From the NCBI RefSeq assembly GCF_014203045.1, contig NZ_JACHIF010000002.1, positions 372,001 through 436,000 on the forward strand: a stretch of DNA of 64,000 nucleotides, given 5' to 3'. The position numbers and the translations under genes were made by a program. Position 1 is the stretch's first letter. Each line of letters starts with the position of its first letter. This DNA is from Prosthecobacter dejongeii (GTDB lineage Bacteria > Verrucomicrobiota > Verrucomicrobiia > Verrucomicrobiales > Verrucomicrobiaceae). A model generated the notes under the pieces. The model ran no database searches. It was not told the origin of the DNA and worked only from the letters and a program-made list of their open reading frames with translations. Shown here one piece after another: positions 33,978-44,590 of the stretch.

Positions 33978-34342
33978 TCGGCGGGACACTCCTTCATCGC
34001 CAGAATGGCGGGATCAAGTAAGGAAACAGATTCAGTGCCAACGCAGACGAGGAAGTTAGAAAAGCTGGGCGTTACGAAATAGGCACTTAAATGGCGGGCG
34101 ATACGAAGATTTGGAGGTGTATAGATGGCGCTCTTTCGTGGCAGAGGCCTGCGAGTTTGTCAGATCCGTTTCACAGTGGGGGACAGGCTTTTGCCACTTA
34201 TCCCAGGTGCTTTCGTGGCCTTTGTGACTGTTTTGTCACCGTAATCATCTTTGGATTTCAAAGACGTGACTTCACTATCCAGGCCGCAGCTTTAGGCACT
34301 TCAAAGGCCTTCATGCGCGGGAATTTGTCCCACTGATCTCAC
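33978..34342. other. Divergent intergenic region, no gene supported
   Basis: About 365 bases between the divergent ATP-grasp and DUF3450 genes. An 81-codon frame at 34091-34336 has unlikely composition and is not called. The segment should carry both promoters. A small inverted repeat, GTGAC/GTCAC within GTGACTGTTTTGTCAC, is present near 34226-34241. TTTCGTGGC occurs twice. Neither can be tied to a regulator. Confidence 0.4.
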
Positions 34343-35137
34343 GTGAATACCTCCGTTCTCAGACTCTTTTCAGCGTTTTGCCTTGTCACGGCAGGGCTGG
34401 CCTACAGTGCCGAGCCTGCTCCTACTCCAGTGGATGCCGGAGACTCTATGAACCATGCCCGCTCACTCCTGCAAAAGTGGGCAGAGACGGAGCGCCTCAT
34501 CGCCTCTGAGCGGCATGAATGGGAGCAAGGTAAAGCTCTGTTAGAAGGCCGCATCACCCTCGTCGAGCAATCCGTGATGGAGATGAAAAAGAAGATCACG
34601 GAGGCTGAAACGAAGCTGGCGGATGCCAAGAAGCGCGCAGCCGAAGTAGAACTGGAAAAAGCTCAGGCGAAAGAGGCGAGCGATGCTTTGCTGGCTGCGG
34701 CGGAAGAGCTGGAAAAAGGTGTGCGAGCTCTCGTCGCACGTGTGCCGACCAATGTTAAAGAGAAGGTGAAAGTGCTGGCTGACCGCATTCCCAAAGAAGG
34801 CGCTGAAGTCAAAAACATCACCGCTGCGGAGCGTTACCAAAATGTGTTGGGCGTGGTCAATGAACTGAACAAGGCAAATCTTGAAATTGCCTCTTTGCCT
34901 GAAATTCATGAAGTGGGGAATGGAAAGAAGGCCGAGGTGAAGACGGTCTATATCGGTCTCGGACAGGCCTACTTTGTCAATGCTGCCGGTGACATCGGCG
35001 GTGTGGGTGTCCCCAACGCGGACGCCTGGGTGTGGAAGACAGATCCCACCATCGCCAAGAGCATGATGGAAGTGCTTGAGGTCATGAAAAAGACGGTGAG
35101 CCCAAAGCTCGTCGAGCTCCCTGCCACGATTGATTGA
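34343..35137 (+). CDS. DUF3450-like periplasmic coiled-coil protein
   Basis: This 264-aa protein has a signal peptide (VNTSVLRLFSAFCLVTAGLAYSAE). A long coiled coil (about 60-135, rich in E, K and A, for example ETKLADAKKRAAEVELEKAQAKEASD) is followed by a C-terminal globular part with VYIGLGQAYFVNAAGD. That layout and the last segment fit the DUF3450 family, whose genes sit at the head of TonB2-type clusters in Vibrio and Shewanella. It presumably works in the periplasm with the channel encoded next. The start is GTG and there is no Shine-Dalgarno sequence. The next gene starts 22 bases after its stop. Confidence 0.8.
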   Translation: MNTSVLRLFSAFCLVTAGLAYSAEPAPTPVDAGDSMNHARSLLQKWAETERLIASERHEWEQGKALLEGRITLVEQSVMEMKKKITEAETKLADAKKRAAEVELEKAQAKEASDALLAAAEELEKGVRALVARVPTNVKEKVKVLADRIPKEGAEVKNITAAERYQNVLGVVNELNKANLEIASLPEIHEVGNGKKAEVKTVYIGLGQAYFVNAAGDIGGVGVPNADAWVWKTDPTIAKSMMEVLEVMKKTVSPKLVELPATID

Positions 35138-35159
35138 ATTTTTTGCTGCTCTTTATAGT

Positions 35160-36668
35160 ATGAAACCTTTTGTTATTCTTTGCGCGTCTTGGTTGGCGAT
35201 GGCCACGGCCCAAGCGCAGGCTCCGGCCCCTTCAGTGTTTAATTCAGCCGCTAGTTCCGCTCAAAAAGACTATGAGAAAAGTCTGGAAGACCTTTCCAAG
35301 GCGCGGGCGGAGATTGATAAAGACAAGGAACCCATGAATCGCAAGCTCTCCGCTGCGGAGGCAGAATTGGCCGCCCTTCAAGAGAAATTTGCCCCTTTGA
35401 CTCGTGAGCTGGATCAGGCGGAACTGAATGTGGTGAACCTTAAAAATGAGGTCAAGCTCGCCACTGACGAAAGCACTTACCTCACGAATATCATGGATGA
35501 GTTTACCAAAGGGTATGAGTCTAAGGTGCACGTCAGTGAGTTGCAACGTCTGGGGGATGTCCTTAGCAAAGCCAAGGCTGCGAGTGATGACGAGAAAGCC
35601 ACGACCAAGGATCGTTTCATGGCGCAAGTAGGCCTTATCCGTGCGGCCATCACTCGGCTGGCGGAAGTGATCGGTGGCACTCGTTTTGAAGGTCAGGCCG
35701 TGGATAGCCAGGGATTTGTCATGGATGGCAAATTTGCCCTTATTGGCCCCATGGCGTTTTTCTCTGCCAAGGGAGGTGCAGGTTCGGGCATTGCAATGCC
35801 TCAGGTGGGCTCACCCATGCCGATCATCCGCAGTATTACCCCTGAGATCAATGCCTCCATCGCCACACTGGTGGAGACAGGCAAAGGCCTGCTGCCTCTG
35901 GATGCCACCCTGGGTGGTGCTATCAAAGACTTCGTGACCAAGCATAGTTTGTTAGACACCTACAAGCACGGTGGGCCGATCATGCATCCGCTCTTGCTAG
36001 TTAGCATTCTGGTTTTCGGCACGGCTATCGAGCGAATCTTTTTCATTCTGCGTGAGAAAAAGCGCCGTCAGCCACGGGATGTGCATGAGCTTTTGGAAGC
36101 TGTGGAAGCGGGTGATTTTGACAAGGCCATCAGTGTGGGCAGCAAGTCCAAGGATTATGTAGGTCGCGCTCTTTCCCATGCTCTTGAGCACGTGGAAACA
36201 AATATTTCTGATGCACTCGGCATGGCCGCAGCCATGGAGATCAAACGCTTCAAACGTGGCTTCTTCGTCCTGGATACAGGGATGACCATCGCTCCATTGC
36301 TGGGGCTGCTCGGTACGGTGACCGGGATGATGGCCTCCTTTGCCGCTATCGGTGCAGACATGGGCGCTCCCTCCGCCATCACGGGTGGTATTGCGGAAGC
36401 TCTCATCGCCACGGCCTTCGGTCTCGTCATTGCCATGACCGGTCTTGTTCCCTTCAACTACCTCAACAACATGGTGGAAGATGCCGAGCACGAACTGGAA
36501 GTGGCAGCCTCCAAGATGGAACTCATCATCGAGAAGAATAAGAAGCACGAGGAGGAGTTGCGTCACCGCCACCGCCAAATGATGGCTGGTGAAAATGTAG
36601 GTCTCCAGCAAATCTCTGGTAAGCCCGCTGTGAACAAGAACCTCGGTCAGGATCCTCTACCCGCCTAA
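35160..36668 (+). CDS. MotA/TolQ/ExbB proton channel with periplasmic coiled-coil head (TtpC-like)
   Basis: A 502-aa inner-membrane protein. It has a signal peptide (MKPFVILCASWLAMATAQA) and a periplasmic coiled-coil region (about 30-150). The C-terminal MotA/TolQ/ExbB domain has spans at about 273-291, 373-395 and 409-435. The last two carry the conserved APLLGLLGTVTGM and IAEALIATAFGLVIA motifs of proton channels. The long N-terminal head distinguishes it from plain ExbB and matches TtpC of Vibrio TonB2 systems. The upstream in-frame ATG at 35130 overlaps the previous gene and spoils the signal peptide, so 35160 is preferred. It should use the proton motive force to drive the TonB protein encoded downstream. 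Confidence 0.9.
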   Translation: MKPFVILCASWLAMATAQAQAPAPSVFNSAASSAQKDYEKSLEDLSKARAEIDKDKEPMNRKLSAAEAELAALQEKFAPLTRELDQAELNVVNLKNEVKLATDESTYLTNIMDEFTKGYESKVHVSELQRLGDVLSKAKAASDDEKATTKDRFMAQVGLIRAAITRLAEVIGGTRFEGQAVDSQGFVMDGKFALIGPMAFFSAKGGAGSGIAMPQVGSPMPIIRSITPEINASIATLVETGKGLLPLDATLGGAIKDFVTKHSLLDTYKHGGPIMHPLLLVSILVFGTAIERIFFILREKKRRQPRDVHELLEAVEAGDFDKAISVGSKSKDYVGRALSHALEHVETNISDALGMAAAMEIKRFKRGFFVLDTGMTIAPLLGLLGTVTGMMASFAAIGADMGAPSAITGGIAEALIATAFGLVIAMTGLVPFNYLNNMVEDAEHELEVAASKMELIIEKNKKHEEELRHRHRQMMAGENVGLQQISGKPAVNKNLGQDPLPA

Positions 36669-36670
36669 CC

Positions 36671-37078
36671 ATGAAGTTTCGTAAAAAGCCTAAAAAGCAC
36701 GCCAAGATTGAGGTCGTTCCTCTCATTGACGTGGTGTTCTTCCTCCTGGCCACATTCGTCATGGTGTCTCTTTCCATGACTAAGAATGAGGGGATCACGG
36801 TGAACAATCCTGCGGCCTCCACTGCGAGCCCGAAGGATAACAAAGATGCCACCTTGACTCTGAGTCTGGCTCAGACGGGCGAGATCTTCTTTAATAAAGA
36901 AAAGATCAATGCCGCTCAGTTACCCTTGCGTTTGCAAAGCTTCAAGTCTGCCAACAAAGACGGTCAAGTCGTAGTGAATGGCGATGGAGATGTGCCTTAC
37001 AAATTCATCGTCACGGTACTGGATGAAGCCCGCAAAGCTGGCTTTACTAAGATCGCCCACTCCGTTGAGCGGAAGTAA
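36671..37078 (+). CDS. exbD: ExbD/TolR-family biopolymer transport protein
   Basis: A 135-aa inner-membrane partner of the ExbB-type channel. It has a short basic cytoplasmic tail (MKFRKKPKKHAKIE) and one membrane span (about 16-38, VPLIDVVFFLLATFVMVSL). The span contains the functionally essential Asp of the family. A periplasmic domain (GQVVVNGDGDVPYKFIVTVLDEARKAGFTKIA) follows, typical of ExbD/TolR. Length is normal. It begins 2 bases after the channel gene, so translation is probably coupled. The cluster contains tonB rather than tolA/tolB, which favours an Exb role over a Tol role. Confidence 0.93.
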   Translation: MKFRKKPKKHAKIEVVPLIDVVFFLLATFVMVSLSMTKNEGITVNNPAASTASPKDNKDATLTLSLAQTGEIFFNKEKINAAQLPLRLQSFKSANKDGQVVVNGDGDVPYKFIVTVLDEARKAGFTKIAHSVERK

Positions 37079-37102
37079 CTTCGCTGCTGCCTTCTTCCTG
37101 TC

Positions 37103-37786
37103 ATGAAACAAGCTGTCGTTGGCCTGCTCGCTGCCTTGGGGCTTCATGCGATTGTGTTTCTCTTTGGTGGTTTTTTGATCCCCAAAGGCGAAGAGGGCGT
37201 GAAGAAAAAGGAAGTGCTGGTGGAGGTGGAAGTGAACAAGAAGGAAGAGAAGAAGGTGGAAGAGGAGCCCAAGGAAAAGCTGGAAGAGCCCGTGCCTGAC
37301 ATTGAGCAGGACATGAAAGACTTTCGTGAACTAGCTGCTCCCGCCGCTTCTGCGCCTGGCCCTGCTCTAAGCGCAGCCAGTCTATCCGATCTTAGCTCTG
37401 CGCTCTCCGGTGCAGGGGGGGGGGAAGGGGGCTTTGGTTCCTCCGTTGGCTTCGGTAGCGGTGTCATCGGTGGCAGTGGTTCTGGCAGCATGGGCGGCAT
37501 GGGGGATATGCTTTCGGGTGGCCAGCTAGATAACAAACCCGAACCCGTGAACCGTGCCTCGCCCAAACTTTCGAGTTCCCAGCGCCAGAAGGCTAAAGGG
37601 GTGGTCAATCTAATCATCGTTGTAGGTCCAGATGGCACGGTTTCGAAAGCGGACGTGACCGATACGCCTGATCCCTCCATCAACGCTCCCTGCATTGAGG
37701 CTGCCCGTCAGTGGCGCTTCAAGCCCGGTACTCGTGCGGGCAAGCCTGTGTCTTTTAAACTGAAACTCCCCTTCCGATTCGAATGA
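37103..37786 (+). CDS. tonB: TonB-family energy transducer
   Basis: A 227-aa protein with the full TonB layout: a single N-terminal span (about 2-24), then a Lys/Glu-rich periplasmic linker (about 30-72). A Ser/Gly/Ala-rich linker (about 75-145) leads to the C-terminal TonB domain (about 155-227), with ARQWRFKPGTRAGKPVSF and a PFRFE end. Its task would be to carry energy from the ExbB/ExbD complex to outer-membrane receptors, none of which is encoded here. A G10 run at 37415-37424 lies inside the glycine linker; loss or gain of one G would remove the TonB domain. Its stop overlaps the ATG of the TPR gene (ATGA). Confidence 0.88.
   Translation: MKQAVVGLLAALGLHAIVFLFGGFLIPKGEEGVKKKEVLVEVEVNKKEEKKVEEEPKEKLEEPVPDIEQDMKDFRELAAPAASAPGPALSAASLSDLSSALSGAGGGEGGFGSSVGFGSGVIGGSGSGSMGGMGDMLSGGQLDNKPEPVNRASPKLSSSQRQKAKGVVNLIIVVGPDGTVSKADVTDTPDPSINAPCIEAARQWRFKPGTRAGKPVSFKLKLPFRFE
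37415..37424 (+). repeat. G10 homopolymer inside the tonB coding sequence
   Basis: Ten consecutive G bases code for the glycines at residues 105-107 and the first base of the Glu codon, in the linker before the TonB domain. A one-base slip would shift the frame and cut off the functional C-terminus. A second run of G5 follows after two A bases. Confidence 0.95.
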
Positions 37787-39156
37787 AGTGTCTCCTCCCT
37801 GGCCTCTTGCTCCTTGGGTTTTCACAGCTCCACGCTGCCTCTTCCCACAAGGCTCCGTATGCCCTGCAAATGTGGAATGATCCGGCTTTCGCGCGTTACT
37901 TCGTTGGCACTTATGGCAACATTCCTGATGTGGAGCCTGAGTTAAAAGATGCGGATCGCGAGATCCTTCAGCAGCTCCTGCCTTTGATGGCTAAGCCACT
38001 GGATGCCATCCAGTTTTTATCCAAGGTGGTGGGTAAGGATTCCAATGCGATTTTTGATTTTCAGGTGGCCAGTCTTTATCTGGACAATGGGATGAACGAT
38101 CCCTCTGAGAAGTGGTTTTTGTCAGCCCTCAACAAAGCTCCTGCTTTTCGTCGTGCTTGGCGTGGTCTGGGCATGGCGCAGGTGAAAGCCAGCAAGTGGA
38201 AAGAGGCTGTGGCCAGTCTGGGTAAGGCCATCGGCCTGGGCATTCAAGATGGACCGACCTATGGGTTGCTCGCCTATTCATTGTTGGCCCTTGAGCGTGC
38301 ATCCTCGGCGGAGAGTGCCTACCGCCAAGCTTTGATGTTTGAGCCGGATTCGCTCGATTGGAAAATGGGTCTGGTGCGGGCGCAACTCAAGCAACTGAAG
38401 GCGGCCGAAGCAGCGGCTCTTTGCGATGAAATCCTGCGTGATCATCCTGACCGTATCGAATTGCTGAGCCTGCAAGCTGAGGCCTACATCGCCATGAAGG
38501 AGAATGGCAAGGCAACCGAGAACCTAGAGATTTTGGTGCGCGGTGGTCAGGCGAAGGGGGATGACATCAAACGTCTCGGGGATATTTACCTCGCGACCCA
38601 TGAGCCTGCTCTGGCACTCAGTGCCTTTAGCCGCTGGCTGGAACGCAGTGATAAGAAACCGGCTGAAGACGTGCCCCACATCGTCATGGTGGCGGAAAAT
38701 CTCTCTTCTCAAAATGCGCTGCCCGAAGCCTCTTTATTGCTGGCTAAAGCCAAGGCTAGCTCCGACAAACAATTGCCAAAAGAAGTCGAGGCCAAGATGC
38801 TTAAAGTTGAGGCACGTCTGCAAATGTCCGCAGGCAAAGGCGAGGCTGCAGCCCCCATTTTACAACGTGTTGTCGAGTTGAATCCGATGGATGGCAGCGC
38901 CCTCATGCTCTTGGGGCAGCACTTTGCGGATGCCAAGGACGGTGTGAAGGCTACTGCCTACTACGAGCGTGCCACCAAGATCAAAGAAACCGAACCGGAT
39001 GCTCTCATCCGTTTGGCGCAGATGAACATCGCCGATGGCAAGTTAGCCGATGCATTGCCCATGCTGAAAAAATCAAATGATCTGAAGCCTCGTGATGGGG
39101 TGCAGAAACTGATTCAGGACCTGGAGAAGTTCCTGAAGAAGGGGCCAAAAACCTAG
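37783..39156 (+). CDS. Periplasmic TPR protein of the Ton-like operon
   Basis: A 457-aa protein with a signal peptide (MKCLLPGLLLLGFSQLHAAS). It carries about eight TPR-like helical repeats (for example FDFQVASLYLDNGMNDPSEKWF, YGLLAYSLLALERASSAESAYRQAL, ALMLLGQHFADAKDGVKATAYYERA). TPR arrays bind proteins. Genes of this type also end TonB2-type clusters in marine gammaproteobacteria, where a TPR protein is thought to help assemble the complex. The ATG overlaps the tonB stop by 4 bases, so it is translationally coupled. I infer a scaffold or partner role for the DUF3450-channel-ExbD-TonB complex. Confidence 0.88.
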   Translation: MKCLLPGLLLLGFSQLHAASSHKAPYALQMWNDPAFARYFVGTYGNIPDVEPELKDADREILQQLLPLMAKPLDAIQFLSKVVGKDSNAIFDFQVASLYLDNGMNDPSEKWFLSALNKAPAFRRAWRGLGMAQVKASKWKEAVASLGKAIGLGIQDGPTYGLLAYSLLALERASSAESAYRQALMFEPDSLDWKMGLVRAQLKQLKAAEAAALCDEILRDHPDRIELLSLQAEAYIAMKENGKATENLEILVRGGQAKGDDIKRLGDIYLATHEPALALSAFSRWLERSDKKPAEDVPHIVMVAENLSSQNALPEASLLLAKAKASSDKQLPKEVEAKMLKVEARLQMSAGKGEAAAPILQRVVELNPMDGSALMLLGQHFADAKDGVKATAYYERATKIKETEPDALIRLAQMNIADGKLADALPMLKKSNDLKPRDGVQKLIQDLEKFLKKGPKT

Positions 39157-41056: not shown

Positions 41057-42748
41057 TTAGCGGAAAAGAGCCCCCAGCTTTTTGCCCAAAAGCAGCGCGG
41101 CCCCCACAATGGTGATGGTGAGGAAGATCATGGCCCACACACCGAGGGCAGAGGCGAGGTTTGGCCCATTGCCCAGGCCCATGACTAGAAAGTAGATGGC
41201 CTTGGTGATGGGGAAATGGGCGGACTGCTGCGCGAGGACCATAGAGTCACTCACCTCCAGCATGGCAAAGGCAAAGGCCAGGAGACCACCCGCAAGAAGA
41301 TGGGGCGCGACCAACGGCAGCGTGATTCGCCACAGAGCACGCTCGGGTGTCGCACCCAGATTTTGTGCCGCCTCTTCCAAGACTGGGTTGACCTGCTGAA
41401 ACCCTGCGGAGGCAGAGCGCACAATGTAGGGCAGGCGACGCACAGCATACGCGATGATCAAGATGACCAATGGATCCTCCCCCAGAATAAGCCAGTCAAA
41501 CTGCTGACCCGGGCGCGTCATGGCCAGATAACCAAAAGCCATGACGACCCCCGGCACCGCCAGTGGCAGCATGGCCATGGCGTCCAATAACTGGCGCCCC
41601 CAGATGCGCGTGCGCACATTCACATAGGCCACGCCGATGCCCAGCACTAACGCGAACGCGATGGCGATGACAGAGTATTTAAGACTGTTGGCGATCGAGC
41701 TGAGGGTGAGCTCATGTCCTAGCGCCTGATGGTAATGATCCAGAGTGAAGACCTGCGGCAGCACCGTAGCATACCAGTCATCGGCAAAGCTGAGGAGCAC
41801 CACTCCGAGATGTGGCACCACAGCCAGGAATGTGATGAAGGCAAAAGCAGAGGTGCACAGCAGGCCGAGGCTGAGCGGCAGGCGCACCGTCTCACGTGCT
41901 AGAGTGGCACGGCCACCGCCGACGGCATCGGCGCGACCAAAGAAGACCTTACTCAGGGTGTAAATGAGGGTGCTGAAGACCAGCATGACCACGACCAGGG
42001 CGTAAGGGAAAGGATTGTCGCTGAGGTCATTCAGGGAGCGGAAAATCTGCACGGCCGTGACGCGATCATAGTCAAACACCAGGGGCACGCCTAGCTCGGT
42101 AAAAGCCCAGATGAAGACAATGGTGCCCCCAGCAAAAATACCCGGCATGATGAGTGGCAGTGTGATGCGCCAAAAACGCTGCCATGGCGGGCAACCGAGG
42201 CTAGCTCCAGCTTCCTCCATGGCGGGGTCCAAATTGGCCAGAACGGCGGAGATGTTCAGGTAAAGAATGGGGTAAAGGTGCAATACCTCCATGACCACGA
42301 TTCCCAGCATCTGCCCTTCGCCCAGCCAGTCGGTGGGGTGTTTGGCATTCATCAGGCCTAACTGAATGAGTGCGGAATTTAGAGCCCCCGCCTGTCCCAA
42401 GATGGCTTTGATGCCGATGGCACCGACGAAAGGTGGGAGCACCATGGGCGTGAGCACCAGACTATTCAGCAGGCTTTTACCAGGAAAGTCATACCTCACA
42501 AACATCATGGCCAGCGGCACGGAAATGAGCAAGCAGCCCAGCGTGGTCCAAATGGCGATTGTGAATGAATTGATCAATCCCTCGCGGTAGAGAGGATTGC
42601 GAAACACCTCCGCAATGAATTCCAGCGTGAATTGGTGATCGGGCGTTTCAAAGGCCAGCTTCACTGTCGTCCAGATGGGATAGACAAAAAAGCAGCCGAA
42701 GAAGACGGCCATGATGCCGAAGACGAGGAGAGCGAGGGAGCGTGACAT
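41057..42748 (-). CDS. Fused ABC importer permease, iron (Fe3+)-type
   Basis: A 563-aa inner-membrane protein with about twelve spans. It is two permease domains in one chain, as in FbpB/SfuB. Each half has an EAA loop that would dock an ATPase: EEAGASLGCPPWQRFWRITLP in the first half and EEAAQNLGATPERALWRITLP in the second. The ATG at 42748 begins the first span (MSRSLALLVFGIMAVFFGCFF). The longer open frame to 42907 lies inside the upstream gene. It starts 19 bases after the stop of the binding-protein gene. Iron(III) is the most likely substrate by family, but thiamine or phosphonate types are close relatives. No ATP-binding gene is next to it. Confidence 0.88.
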   Translation of the reverse strand: MSRSLALLVFGIMAVFFGCFFVYPIWTTVKLAFETPDHQFTLEFIAEVFRNPLYREGLINSFTIAIWTTLGCLLISVPLAMMFVRYDFPGKSLLNSLVLTPMVLPPFVGAIGIKAILGQAGALNSALIQLGLMNAKHPTDWLGEGQMLGIVVMEVLHLYPILYLNISAVLANLDPAMEEAGASLGCPPWQRFWRITLPLIMPGIFAGGTIVFIWAFTELGVPLVFDYDRVTAVQIFRSLNDLSDNPFPYALVVVMLVFSTLIYTLSKVFFGRADAVGGGRATLARETVRLPLSLGLLCTSAFAFITFLAVVPHLGVVLLSFADDWYATVLPQVFTLDHYHQALGHELTLSSIANSLKYSVIAIAFALVLGIGVAYVNVRTRIWGRQLLDAMAMLPLAVPGVVMAFGYLAMTRPGQQFDWLILGEDPLVILIIAYAVRRLPYIVRSASAGFQQVNPVLEEAAQNLGATPERALWRITLPLVAPHLLAGGLLAFAFAMLEVSDSMVLAQQSAHFPITKAIYFLVMGLGNGPNLASALGVWAMIFLTITIVGAALLLGKKLGALFR

Positions 42749-42767
42749 CGTGGAAAGCGGTGAAAGA

Positions 42768-44432
42768 TTATTCACCCTGGCGGGCCAGGTCGTAGGCGAT
42801 CTCGTAGTTGTTGCGGAAGGTATCGCCCAGGGTTCTGGCCAGGCGGGTTTCTGCCACTTTGTCACGGGAGCGGACCACTTTGGTGATGTCACCAATGGCC
42901 AGATCATAACGAATGCTCGTCAGCTCATGAAACACCTCTACTGCACGCTGTGGTTGGTGATGCGTGATGAGGGTGTGCCAGGCTTTTTTCTGCTCCTGAT
43001 GCGTGTCCACACACATCACCCGGATGAGGAAACGCAGGGTGCTAAAGGCGGAAGCTGTCCACTCGGGGTGGTAGGTGAAGGCCTTGGCTTTTTCATACGG
43101 CATCTCGGCGGCATCGCTCATCAGCGCCAGGTTTTCAGGGGAGTAGAAATTCTTGCGCGCAGCCAGTCTGCGCAAGGCACTGCGGGTAGGGCCACCCGGC
43201 GTGCCCGCGCGATACGCCCAGATTTTTTGCCCGGCGTCACTCAGCACAAATTCGATGAAGGCGGTGGCCAGTTCAGCCTCGGGCGCACCTCGAAACATGG
43301 CGATGGGGTCCACACTCACGGAGCTACCTCCCACGGGCATGATAAAACCGATGCGGGACGTGCCATCGGGGCGGCGGGTTTCCTCCTCAGTGGACCGGCC
43401 ATAGTAGTCAATGCACATGCCGGCGGCAGCATCACCCCGTGCCACATCCAACGGAATTTTGCTGGAACTATCGCTGAAATAGCGCGCATTGGCACTGATA
43501 CGCTGGATCAAGTTCATGCCATTTCGCCAACCTTCCCGCACTCCCGCCGCCTCAATCTCCTGGGCGTTTTTAAGATTGCCTGGATTCTGCGTCAGTCGTG
43601 CGATGGCCTCCTGCATTTCCTGCTGGATGAGCATTTCAAAAGCCTTGGTGACCGTGGCGCTGCGGCCAGGATCCGCGAGGGCGAGCTGCCCGTAGAAGCG
43701 TGGATCCGCTAGGTCGCGCCACTGAGCTGGGTCTTTCTCAATGCCGAGTCGGTGCAAAACATCGCGATTGAAGACGATGCCAAAGCTGGATAAACAGCAG
43801 GCCACCCAGCGATCTTTGCCATCTCGAAAAGGCTCCCCACTCACCATCTCAGGGATGCCTTGTTCCCCGAACCATACGGGGTGCTTTTGTCGCAGCGCGG
43901 GGATGCCCGTGCCGGGTCCATTTTGGGCCACTAGGGTGCCTGCTTCTGACTGGATCTGAAAATCATAGGCCCCGCCGCCGAAGAAAACATCGAACCCAAC
44001 GCCGACACTGGACTTTAAAAAAGCCTGCCGAGCTGGATCATCCACCGGGGCTTTGGGATTCATGAAATTTTGGGCAATGCTCGGGCTCCAGACTTGGCCG
44101 AGAGCTTGCGTCCAGTAGAGTTGAAAGGCCGCGCTAAATTCAGACTTCAGCATCACGGCGATCTCGGAAGTGCCGCCGGGTACACGCCAGTCCACGGCCA
44201 CCGTTTCTCCAGTCTTCTCCTTCCAGTAACGCACGAAGGCTTGGCCAAATTCGGCTCTTAACCGCTCAGGGTGGGGCGTGACGATGACCAACTTGCGTTC
44301 CGCTTTGGATGAGACCGTGGACTGACGTGGCTTCAGCAGAAAGGGGCCGAGCAGCGTCACCAGCAGGGCGCTGACGATGGCGAGTTCTTTGCACCAGCGG
44401 CGGACAAAGGATGGAGCGGCGGCTTCAGGCAT
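42768..44432 (-). CDS. Membrane-tethered extracellular solute-binding protein
   Basis: A 554-aa binding protein of the iron-type ABC importer family, longer than the usual about 340 residues. The N-terminal hydrophobic segment (about 16-34, LAIVSALLVTLLGPFLLK) is either a signal peptide or an uncleaved anchor. The binding domain begins LVIVTPHPERLRAEFGQAF and includes ARGDAAAGMCIDYYGRS and MPVGGSSVSVDPIAMFRGAPE. The C-terminal 120 or so residues go beyond the family core and are unexplained. The ATG at 44432 (MPEAAAPSF) is preferred over one at 44477. The permease gene follows directly, so the pair forms one operon; the ATPase must come from elsewhere. Confidence 0.87.
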   Translation of the reverse strand: MPEAAAPSFVRRWCKELAIVSALLVTLLGPFLLKPRQSTVSSKAERKLVIVTPHPERLRAEFGQAFVRYWKEKTGETVAVDWRVPGGTSEIAVMLKSEFSAAFQLYWTQALGQVWSPSIAQNFMNPKAPVDDPARQAFLKSSVGVGFDVFFGGGAYDFQIQSEAGTLVAQNGPGTGIPALRQKHPVWFGEQGIPEMVSGEPFRDGKDRWVACCLSSFGIVFNRDVLHRLGIEKDPAQWRDLADPRFYGQLALADPGRSATVTKAFEMLIQQEMQEAIARLTQNPGNLKNAQEIEAAGVREGWRNGMNLIQRISANARYFSDSSSKIPLDVARGDAAAGMCIDYYGRSTEEETRRPDGTSRIGFIMPVGGSSVSVDPIAMFRGAPEAELATAFIEFVLSDAGQKIWAYRAGTPGGPTRSALRRLAARKNFYSPENLALMSDAAEMPYEKAKAFTYHPEWTASAFSTLRFLIRVMCVDTHQEQKKAWHTLITHHQPQRAVEVFHELTSIRYDLAIGDITKVVRSRDKVAETRLARTLGDTFRNNYEIAYDLARQGE

Positions 44433-44590
44433 CGTGCACCATCCAAGCGGAGTGCATGCCAAACGGCAACCCGGCATTCGCTATCCGATGATCTTTTTCC
44501 AATGGCGAAATCATCGGTGCCAGTTGGCCGATTGCAAAAAAGCCACGTTTTCGTCATCGCAAGTCCACTCCGAAATCGCATAATGACTCC

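Follow-up and report, generated by a model that had tools for sequence, protein, structure and literature searches.

A five-gene Ttp-type Ton operon in Prosthecobacter dejongeii with a headed channel of the classical ExbB class

Introduction

Can a Ton system of the Ttp type run on a single channel protein? The question is raised by an operon in a 64-kb stretch of the Prosthecobacter dejongeii genome (the stretch is called the window, the genome G000; G and L numbers label genomes and loci). In the part of PMC6957404 that treats the Vibrio systems, the TonB2 operon has the order ttpB-ttpC-exbB-exbD-tonB-ttpD, the TonB3 operon starts with a receptor gene, and all six TonB2 components of V. vulnificus, ExbB2 included, are reported to be essential. 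In the literature searched, some of it as excerpts, we found no explanation for the dual requirement of Vibrio TonB2 for TtpC and ExbB, and no description of a Ttp cluster without ExbB; such a description may still have been published. The original prediction for the window had described a reduced operon of the TonB2/TtpC type, perhaps a simpler machine, in which a headed channel seems to serve alone, with no receptor nearby. We consider it likely that the operon encodes a five-gene Ttp-type Ton system in which one headed ExbB of the classical class is the only motor and is coupled to a dedicated receptor.

Results

Five genes and one headed channel

Pfam searches identified five genes in the order DUF3450 (TtpB), headed channel (TtpC), ExbD, TonB and tetratricopeptide repeat (TPR) protein (TtpD), as had been proposed (Table 1). 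Of the parts that mark a TonB2/TtpC-type operon, DUF3450, the headed TtpC, ExbD, TonB and a terminal TPR protein were present, and a separate ExbB was not. The genes all lie on the + strand, and because their four junctions are tight, with overlaps of up to 8 bases and gaps of up to 24, the arrangement is operon-like. A failure of the first gene to match DUF3450 had been named as grounds against the prediction; its score was above the cut-off of 32.6 bits, and residues 28-261 aligned with positions 14-240 of the 241-position profile. The longest TtpC frame begins with TTG at 35130. There was no second MotA_ExbB frame in the cluster, and an exbB hidden in another frame of the window was rejected, since none was found. 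The headed channel appears to be the sole channel of the set, in agreement with the prediction.

The AlphaFold model of TtpC (predicted local distance difference test, pLDDT, 79.6) contains a helix of about 98 residues, a small beta domain and the channel. The TtpB model (pLDDT 86.9) has a coiled coil and a small beta domain, with its elements in nearly the same order as in TtpC. Comparison of the TtpB profile with that of the TtpC heads gave a match over 202 columns (probability 96.8, E 2e-10), which identifies TtpB as a free paralogue of the TtpC head. A Foldseek search of TtpB against PDB folds returned nothing at E<=0.001. The best PDB match of the TtpC channel was ExbB of E. coli TonB-ExbBD (9ddo, E 1.2e-6).

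Clusters without a second ExbB fall into two classes

We searched a sample of 288 Verrucomicrobiota genomes for PF11932 (DUF3450) and found it in 81. The gene-order survey that the prediction had suggested counted stand-alone DUF3450 genes scoring above 60 bits by our own models, with lower-scoring places and L098 (a duplicate of L156) dropped. There was a second ExbB-domain gene in 91 of the 101 clusters and none in the other ten (the window, L072, L056, L131, L139, L087, L091, L066, L115 and L077). We excluded L077 from our conclusions, as its ExbD was not found by our own model and its branch was very long. Class A comprises the window, L072 (same genus), L056 (same family), and L131 and L139 (other families). 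It also includes L113 and L114, whose extra ExbB, located after TonB in L113 and with TonB upstream of TtpB in L114, groups with the channel class of these clusters. Class B (L087, L091, L066) comes from one family within the window's order.

The window channel and ExbD are of the classical class

In the channel tree, class A channels were placed inside the clade of headless ExbBs (support 100/96). In a wider tree of 101 rows, the class A channels and all 26 sampled five-gene channels grouped with the headless ExbBs (97/93); the eight sampled six-gene loci all had their TtpC and ExbB placed with the six-gene counterparts. Class A ExbD grouped with headless-type ExbD in the ExbD tree (93 by the Shimodaira-Hasegawa-like approximate likelihood ratio test, SH-aLRT). 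The window channel is 56% identical to the headless ExbB of G169 (a 224-residue frame), compared with 32-35% for six-gene TtpC channels in the same list. Approximately unbiased (AU) tests rejected the joining of six-gene TtpC channels with class A channels (p 0.020) and with class B channels (p 0.016); these values are modest and, the groups having been named after earlier trees were seen, descriptive. The channel of the window's TtpC and its ExbD belong to the classical headless ExbB/ExbD class and not to the TtpC class, so the description as a reduced Vibrio-type machine does not hold.

Conserved residues were examined at the equivalents of E. coli ExbB T148, E176 and T181, which we take to be the pore threonines and the glutamate of transmembrane helix 3 (TM3). 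The window's TtpC has the threonines and the TM3 glutamate, and its ExbD has the membrane aspartate, the full set of a classical motor. Each of the 32 class A channels in the comparison retains all three residues, a set that includes L113 and L114 with their late ExbB and the identical pair L139 and L261. Among six-gene clusters from outside the gammaproteobacteria, the threonines were kept in 23/23 TtpC and ExbB proteins, and the glutamate in 22/23 (TtpC) and 18/23 (ExbB). Ten gammaproteobacterial channels kept the threonines, with glutamate at E176 in only one. Serine occupied this position in both class B channels examined and in four of five DUF2341 channels. Class A and headless channels share the sequence ALIATAFGL or a close variant of it. 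At the same place both non-gammaproteobacterial six-gene channels have ALITTExGL, a motif absent from the gammaproteobacterial six-gene channels.

If a six-gene operon of the Vibrio type had simply lost exbB and kept its own TtpC channel, the outcome would resemble L115 (G223:C1:2188500-2202000) more than the window. L115 has the order TtpB-TtpC-ExbD-ExbD-TPR and a channel of the six-gene TtpC class, but with two ExbDs; our own models found neither ExbB nor TonB there. For the window, whose channel and ExbD belong to another class, we regard such a loss as extremely improbable.

Head and channel do not have the same history. In a head tree with 34 named loci (see below) added and rooted on gammaproteobacteria, class A lay outside a six-gene clade of 100/100, and an earlier placement of the window clade nested inside six-gene heads was dropped. 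A single clade of class A heads was neither demonstrated nor rejected (p 0.55). Gammaproteobacterial TtpC and ExbB grouped weakly with their counterparts (93/60 and 86/42). On the tree of full TtpC proteins, ExbB must have been gained or lost five times, and well-supported branches leave no alternative for four of these events. Head and channel of L079, a six-gene locus from the window's genus, were both within six-gene groups. In G190, another six-gene member of the genus, the upstream flank is 73-77% identical in nucleotides to that of the window and TtpB, TtpC, TonB and TPR proteins are 28-41% identical; a conserved flank with divergent genes points to operon replacement. Either an old six-gene system may have taken up a classical motor to give class A, or heads may have joined two motor types early.

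Five-gene loci are widespread

We extended the search to a contig database with one genome per species (84,980 species). A scan seeded with a single TtpB returned no relatives; one seeded with six TtpB sequences led to 137 confirmed loci, of which 80 are used here (the named loci). By our own models they include 58 five-gene loci (no second ExbB domain within the stretch), 12 six-gene loci with ExbB before ExbD, two with ExbB after TonB, and eight cut by contig ends. By label, the five-gene loci come from Planctomycetota (38), Verrucomicrobiota (12), Lentisphaerota (3) and Bacteroidota (1, a doubtful assignment from a metagenome bin), with four unassigned. The loci nearest the window are from Verrucomicrobiaceae, among them Brevifollis gellanilyticus and a bin labelled Prosthecobacter debontii. 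Both Planctomycetota and Verrucomicrobiaceae commonly have five-gene loci, which are therefore not local, and the idea that ExbB was lost in one genus as a local event was rejected because they are so widespread. TtpC with a separate ExbB was present in all five gammaproteobacterial records, one each from Vibrio sp., Photobacterium, Aeromonas, Pseudoalteromonas and Alteromonas; the single Vibrio record matches what had been said of Vibrio-type clusters.

A receptor family accompanies the clusters

The prediction had noted the lack of a receptor nearby. This is correct for the 64-kb window, which has no match to a receptor family of about 1,030 residues that lies near related clusters, and a member of that family is encoded on contig C6 of the same genome (1,034 residues; CarboxypepD_reg, Plug and TonB-dependent barrel domains). 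Among the named loci, 52 of the 58 with five genes and all 12 with six genes have a member within the fetched stretch. In L240, from Brevifollis gellanilyticus NBRC 108608, the receptor gene is immediately upstream of a five-gene operon. In class A its gene lies directly upstream of TtpB in L056, L113, L131 and L139 and 3 kb upstream in L114; none was near the cluster in the window or L072. The phylum survey found it near only 20 of 89 other six-gene clusters. At E<=1e-30 it was present in 41 of the 288 genomes, 39 of which also had DUF3450 (Fisher p 4e-23, uncorrected for kinship). At least one Plug protein was found in 48 of 50 five-gene-cluster genomes searched (50 of the 58 were submitted), and exactly one in 25, in 24 of those within open frames of 985-1,411 residues. 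The likely receptor of the window's system is thus encoded elsewhere in the genome, on contig C6.

Two further neighbour families, of about 602 and 425 residues, were near 50 and 47 of 81 loci (the 80 named loci and L155). Pfam returned weak TPR, PPR and Ig-like matches only for them. In G000 a member of the 602-residue family precedes the C6 receptor, and the place of the other is taken by a 426-residue gene whose own BLAST family spans five loci.

The motor could instead serve another outer-membrane task, such as envelope tethering of the Tol type, rather than receptor-coupled uptake. The receptor family is not beside the cluster in G000 or G187, and two of the 50 five-gene genomes had no Plug match. 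Against this alternative, the family lies near the cluster in relatives and co-occurs with DUF3450, nearly all five-gene genomes searched encode a Plug protein, and a scan of seven flanking genes revealed neither TolB nor Pal. We judge a task of this kind very unlikely.

A borrowed ExbB and other points against a sole motor

The genome-wide search proposed in the prediction found ten MotA_ExbB matches, one DUF3450 and six Plug matches in G000. Nine of the ten MotA_ExbB genes lie outside the window's operon, so a separate ExbB might be borrowed, for example from the exbB beside tonB on contig C9 (L124), with TtpC an accessory as in Vibrio. L124 and the window channel share a broad channel class, but L124 has its own exbD and tonB. 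Similar sets are present in G187, which has a five-gene cluster, in G190, which has a six-gene one, and in G066, which lacks DUF3450, and so do not track the five-gene cluster. A conserved separate ExbB acting with the set had been named as grounds against the prediction; none of the other nine matches belongs to the six-gene ExbB clade, and the window channel itself retains all three marker residues. We consider a borrowed ExbB unlikely.

Two divergent ExbB-like genes of G000 were rejected as the missing ExbB, with very long branches outside the cluster clades. L128 (G000:C2:645500-661000) is a very divergent 198-residue MotA/ExbB-like gene beside a 1,314-residue frame and a TonB-dependent receptor, its ExbD not found by our own model. 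L127 (G000:C7:240000-252500) encodes a 473-residue MotA/ExbB-like protein whose N-terminus is rich in Cys and resembles a zinc ribbon; the next frames have 298 and 517 residues.

Several observations, beyond the number of MotA_ExbB genes and the modest AU values, weigh against a sole motor coupled to a dedicated receptor. Related clusters are able to carry an extra ExbB outside the TtpC-ExbD interval, two in the survey (L113 of G003, L114 of G139) and two named loci (L310, L312), in each case a protein of 305-335 residues with an N-terminal extension. There was no receptor match at E<=1e-30 in 42 of the 81 DUF3450 genomes. The counts of named loci are biased, because the scan was seeded by the window's TtpB family and 80 of 137 loci were kept, and they are not independent, because some loci repeat survey genomes (L139/L261, L119/L314, L113/L312). 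In some five-gene loci, for example L246, L261, L293 and L318, the stretch stops inside the cluster or shortly behind it, so that a late ExbB would escape notice.

Class B combines six-gene heads with another motor

Class B heads were placed among six-gene heads from the family they come from (98/93 and 99/99), within which a single class B clade had p 0.39. Their TtpB, TonB and TPR proteins likewise fell among the family's six-gene counterparts. The class B channel grouped with fusions of DUF2341 to ExbB (100/92), as did the class B ExbD (SH-aLRT 95). In G178 the class B channel is 77% identical over 230 residues to a DUF2341-ExbB frame of the same genome (L217, assigned to these fusions by channel and length) and 72% identical to the DUF2341-ExbB of G000, compared with 30% for the best-scoring six-gene TtpC channel. 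A single clade of class A and class B heads was rejected (p 2.5e-5). From these trees, class B is a derived motor swap.

The fusion of G000 (L120, G000:C1:93500-106500) is another headed motor, a DUF2341-LamG-ExbB protein beside ExbD and a TonB_2 protein.

A shared dyad suggests a link to phosphate

Upstream of the operon lies a 38-base element with the dyad GTGAC-N6-GTCAC. It is identical upstream of the G190 six-gene cluster, 86% identical over 49 bases in G199 and 95% over 37 bases in G187. A pattern built on the window element (TGTGWCNGTTTTGTCACC, <=2 mismatches) matched G000 four times: at the operon (by construction), at the operon of the 426-residue gene and receptor, between pstB and pstS, and at C1:5264. 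The pst site is at L327 (G000:C1:303000-322000), where the dyad separates the neighbouring, divergently oriented genes pstB and pstS. G190 had five matches, including operon, receptor-operon and pst sites, G199 had operon and pst sites, and G187 the operon site only; in these last two genomes we saw no good dyad site close to the receptors. PstB of G000 and PstS of G000, G190 and G199 scored above their cut-offs. A reversed control pattern gave one or two matches per genome, so the case rests on where the sites lie and not on their number.

The exact dyad precedes TtpB or the receptor operon in nine of 11 named loci that are nearest the window or labelled Verrucomicrobiaceae (L239, L240, L242, L243, L246 from a bin named Akkermansia, L278, L281, L296 and L318; not L241 or L244). 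Over the 80 named loci there were 58 dyad sites, compared with 36 in shuffled sequence, and a site with at most one mismatch was near TtpB in 11, two of them from Planctomycetota. Near these loci, searches for PstS and PstB gave two weak generic ABC matches only. A direct-repeat pattern resembling a Pho box was also tried and set aside; it matched at the operon in all four genomes and at the receptor operon in two of them. Because it missed the pst sites, we call the element a dyad and not a Pho box. With the dyad before the operon, the receptor operon and the pstB-pstS interval, phosphate acquisition is our best guess for the function in the window's family, well short of a demonstration.

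Elsewhere in the window, positions 41057-44477 (- strand) encode an ABC permease and a solute-binding protein whose similarity to 2-aminoethylphosphonate, molybdate and sulfate systems stays below the cut-offs.

Table 1. Features of the operon, in window positions
Feature	Position	Strand	Basis
Upstream element with dyad GTGAC-N6-GTCAC	34221..34258	+	Conserved across relatives
TtpB (DUF3450)	34343..35137	+	Pfam 67.8 bits; GTG start
TtpC, whole frame	35130-36668	+	MotA_ExbB 91.4 bits, residues 352-457, preceded by long coiled coil
TtpC head	35160..35969	+	AlphaFold; N-terminal hydrophobic stretch, ~98-residue helix, shorter helices, beta domain
TtpC channel domain (MotA_ExbB) and C-terminal tail	35970..36668	+	Classical-ExbB class; Pfam, trees, PDB match
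ExbD	36671..37078	+	Pfam 98.7 bits; membrane Asp in PLIDVVFFLL
TonB	37103..37786	+	TonB_C 46.8 bits; His in N-terminal hydrophobic helix (GLHAIVFLFGG)
TtpD-like TPR protein	37783..39156	+	TPR 65.6 bits; TPR tree

Discussion

We propose that TtpC forms a pentamer of a classical-class ExbB carrying a periplasmic head, and that with an ExbD dimer it would make the only 5:2 proton motor of the set, pulling on TonB. TtpB, presumably exported, and the TPR protein may dock on or extend the TtpC head and help to couple TonB to the receptor of about 1,030 residues encoded on contig C6. A separate ExbB would be unneeded because the head sits on what is already an ordinary ExbB channel, and the headed motor probably manages without an additional ExbB as partner. 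Six-gene systems have two channels of other kinds in its place, TtpC and ExbB.

A broader proposal, which we put forward tentatively and with some doubt, is that the periplasmic head modules (TtpC head, TtpB, TtpD) are portable and have been joined to different motors at least two times. Under this proposal the window's family would be a phosphate-starvation Ton machine, co-regulated with the receptor operon and pstS/pstB, that imports a phosphorus source across the outer membrane with one headed motor. According to the consulted section of PMC12505986, Exb/Tol-like channels can carry DUF3450 or DUF2341 as additional domains at the N-terminus, which the authors suggest were acquired repeatedly and independently. 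The notion that heads can be exchanged has thus in part been published. In that section we saw neither the split descent of head and motor, nor the five-gene class, nor the link to a receptor.

The Ttp class was described in 2023 as specific to vibrios and some marine bacteria (PMC10734418), and our results extend its range to Planctomycetota and Verrucomicrobiota. Natural systems in which one headed, classical ExbB apparently takes the place of both make the requirement for TtpC plus ExbB testable, by asking what the head, TtpB and TtpD need from a motor. A further suggestion from the findings is that new TonB-type machines arise in evolution through recombination of heads with motors.

Comparison with known systems shows which parts are shared. 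With Vibrio TonB2 and TonB3 the window shares the order and identity of TtpB, headed TtpC, ExbD, TonB and the TPR protein TtpD; it differs in having no exbB, a channel and ExbD of the classical class, and a receptor on another contig. Headless ExbB-ExbD-ExbD-TonB-TPR operons of the window's phylum (L218-L221) have a channel of the same class, their ExbB being 54-56% identical to the window channel in G169, G181, G075 and G155. However, they lack a head and have no TtpB in the cluster, they encode two ExbDs, and their TPR proteins score below 150 bits with our TtpD model. The DUF2341-LamG-ExbB fusion resembles TtpC in joining ExbB to a large N-terminal domain, but the head is unrelated; the DUF2341 fusions (L120, L217) are the nearest class to the class B motor and are not of the window channel's class. 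To our knowledge, E. coli TonB-ExbB-ExbD has no head, TtpB or TtpD. What it does share with the window's TtpC is the channel fold (9ddo) and the marker residues.

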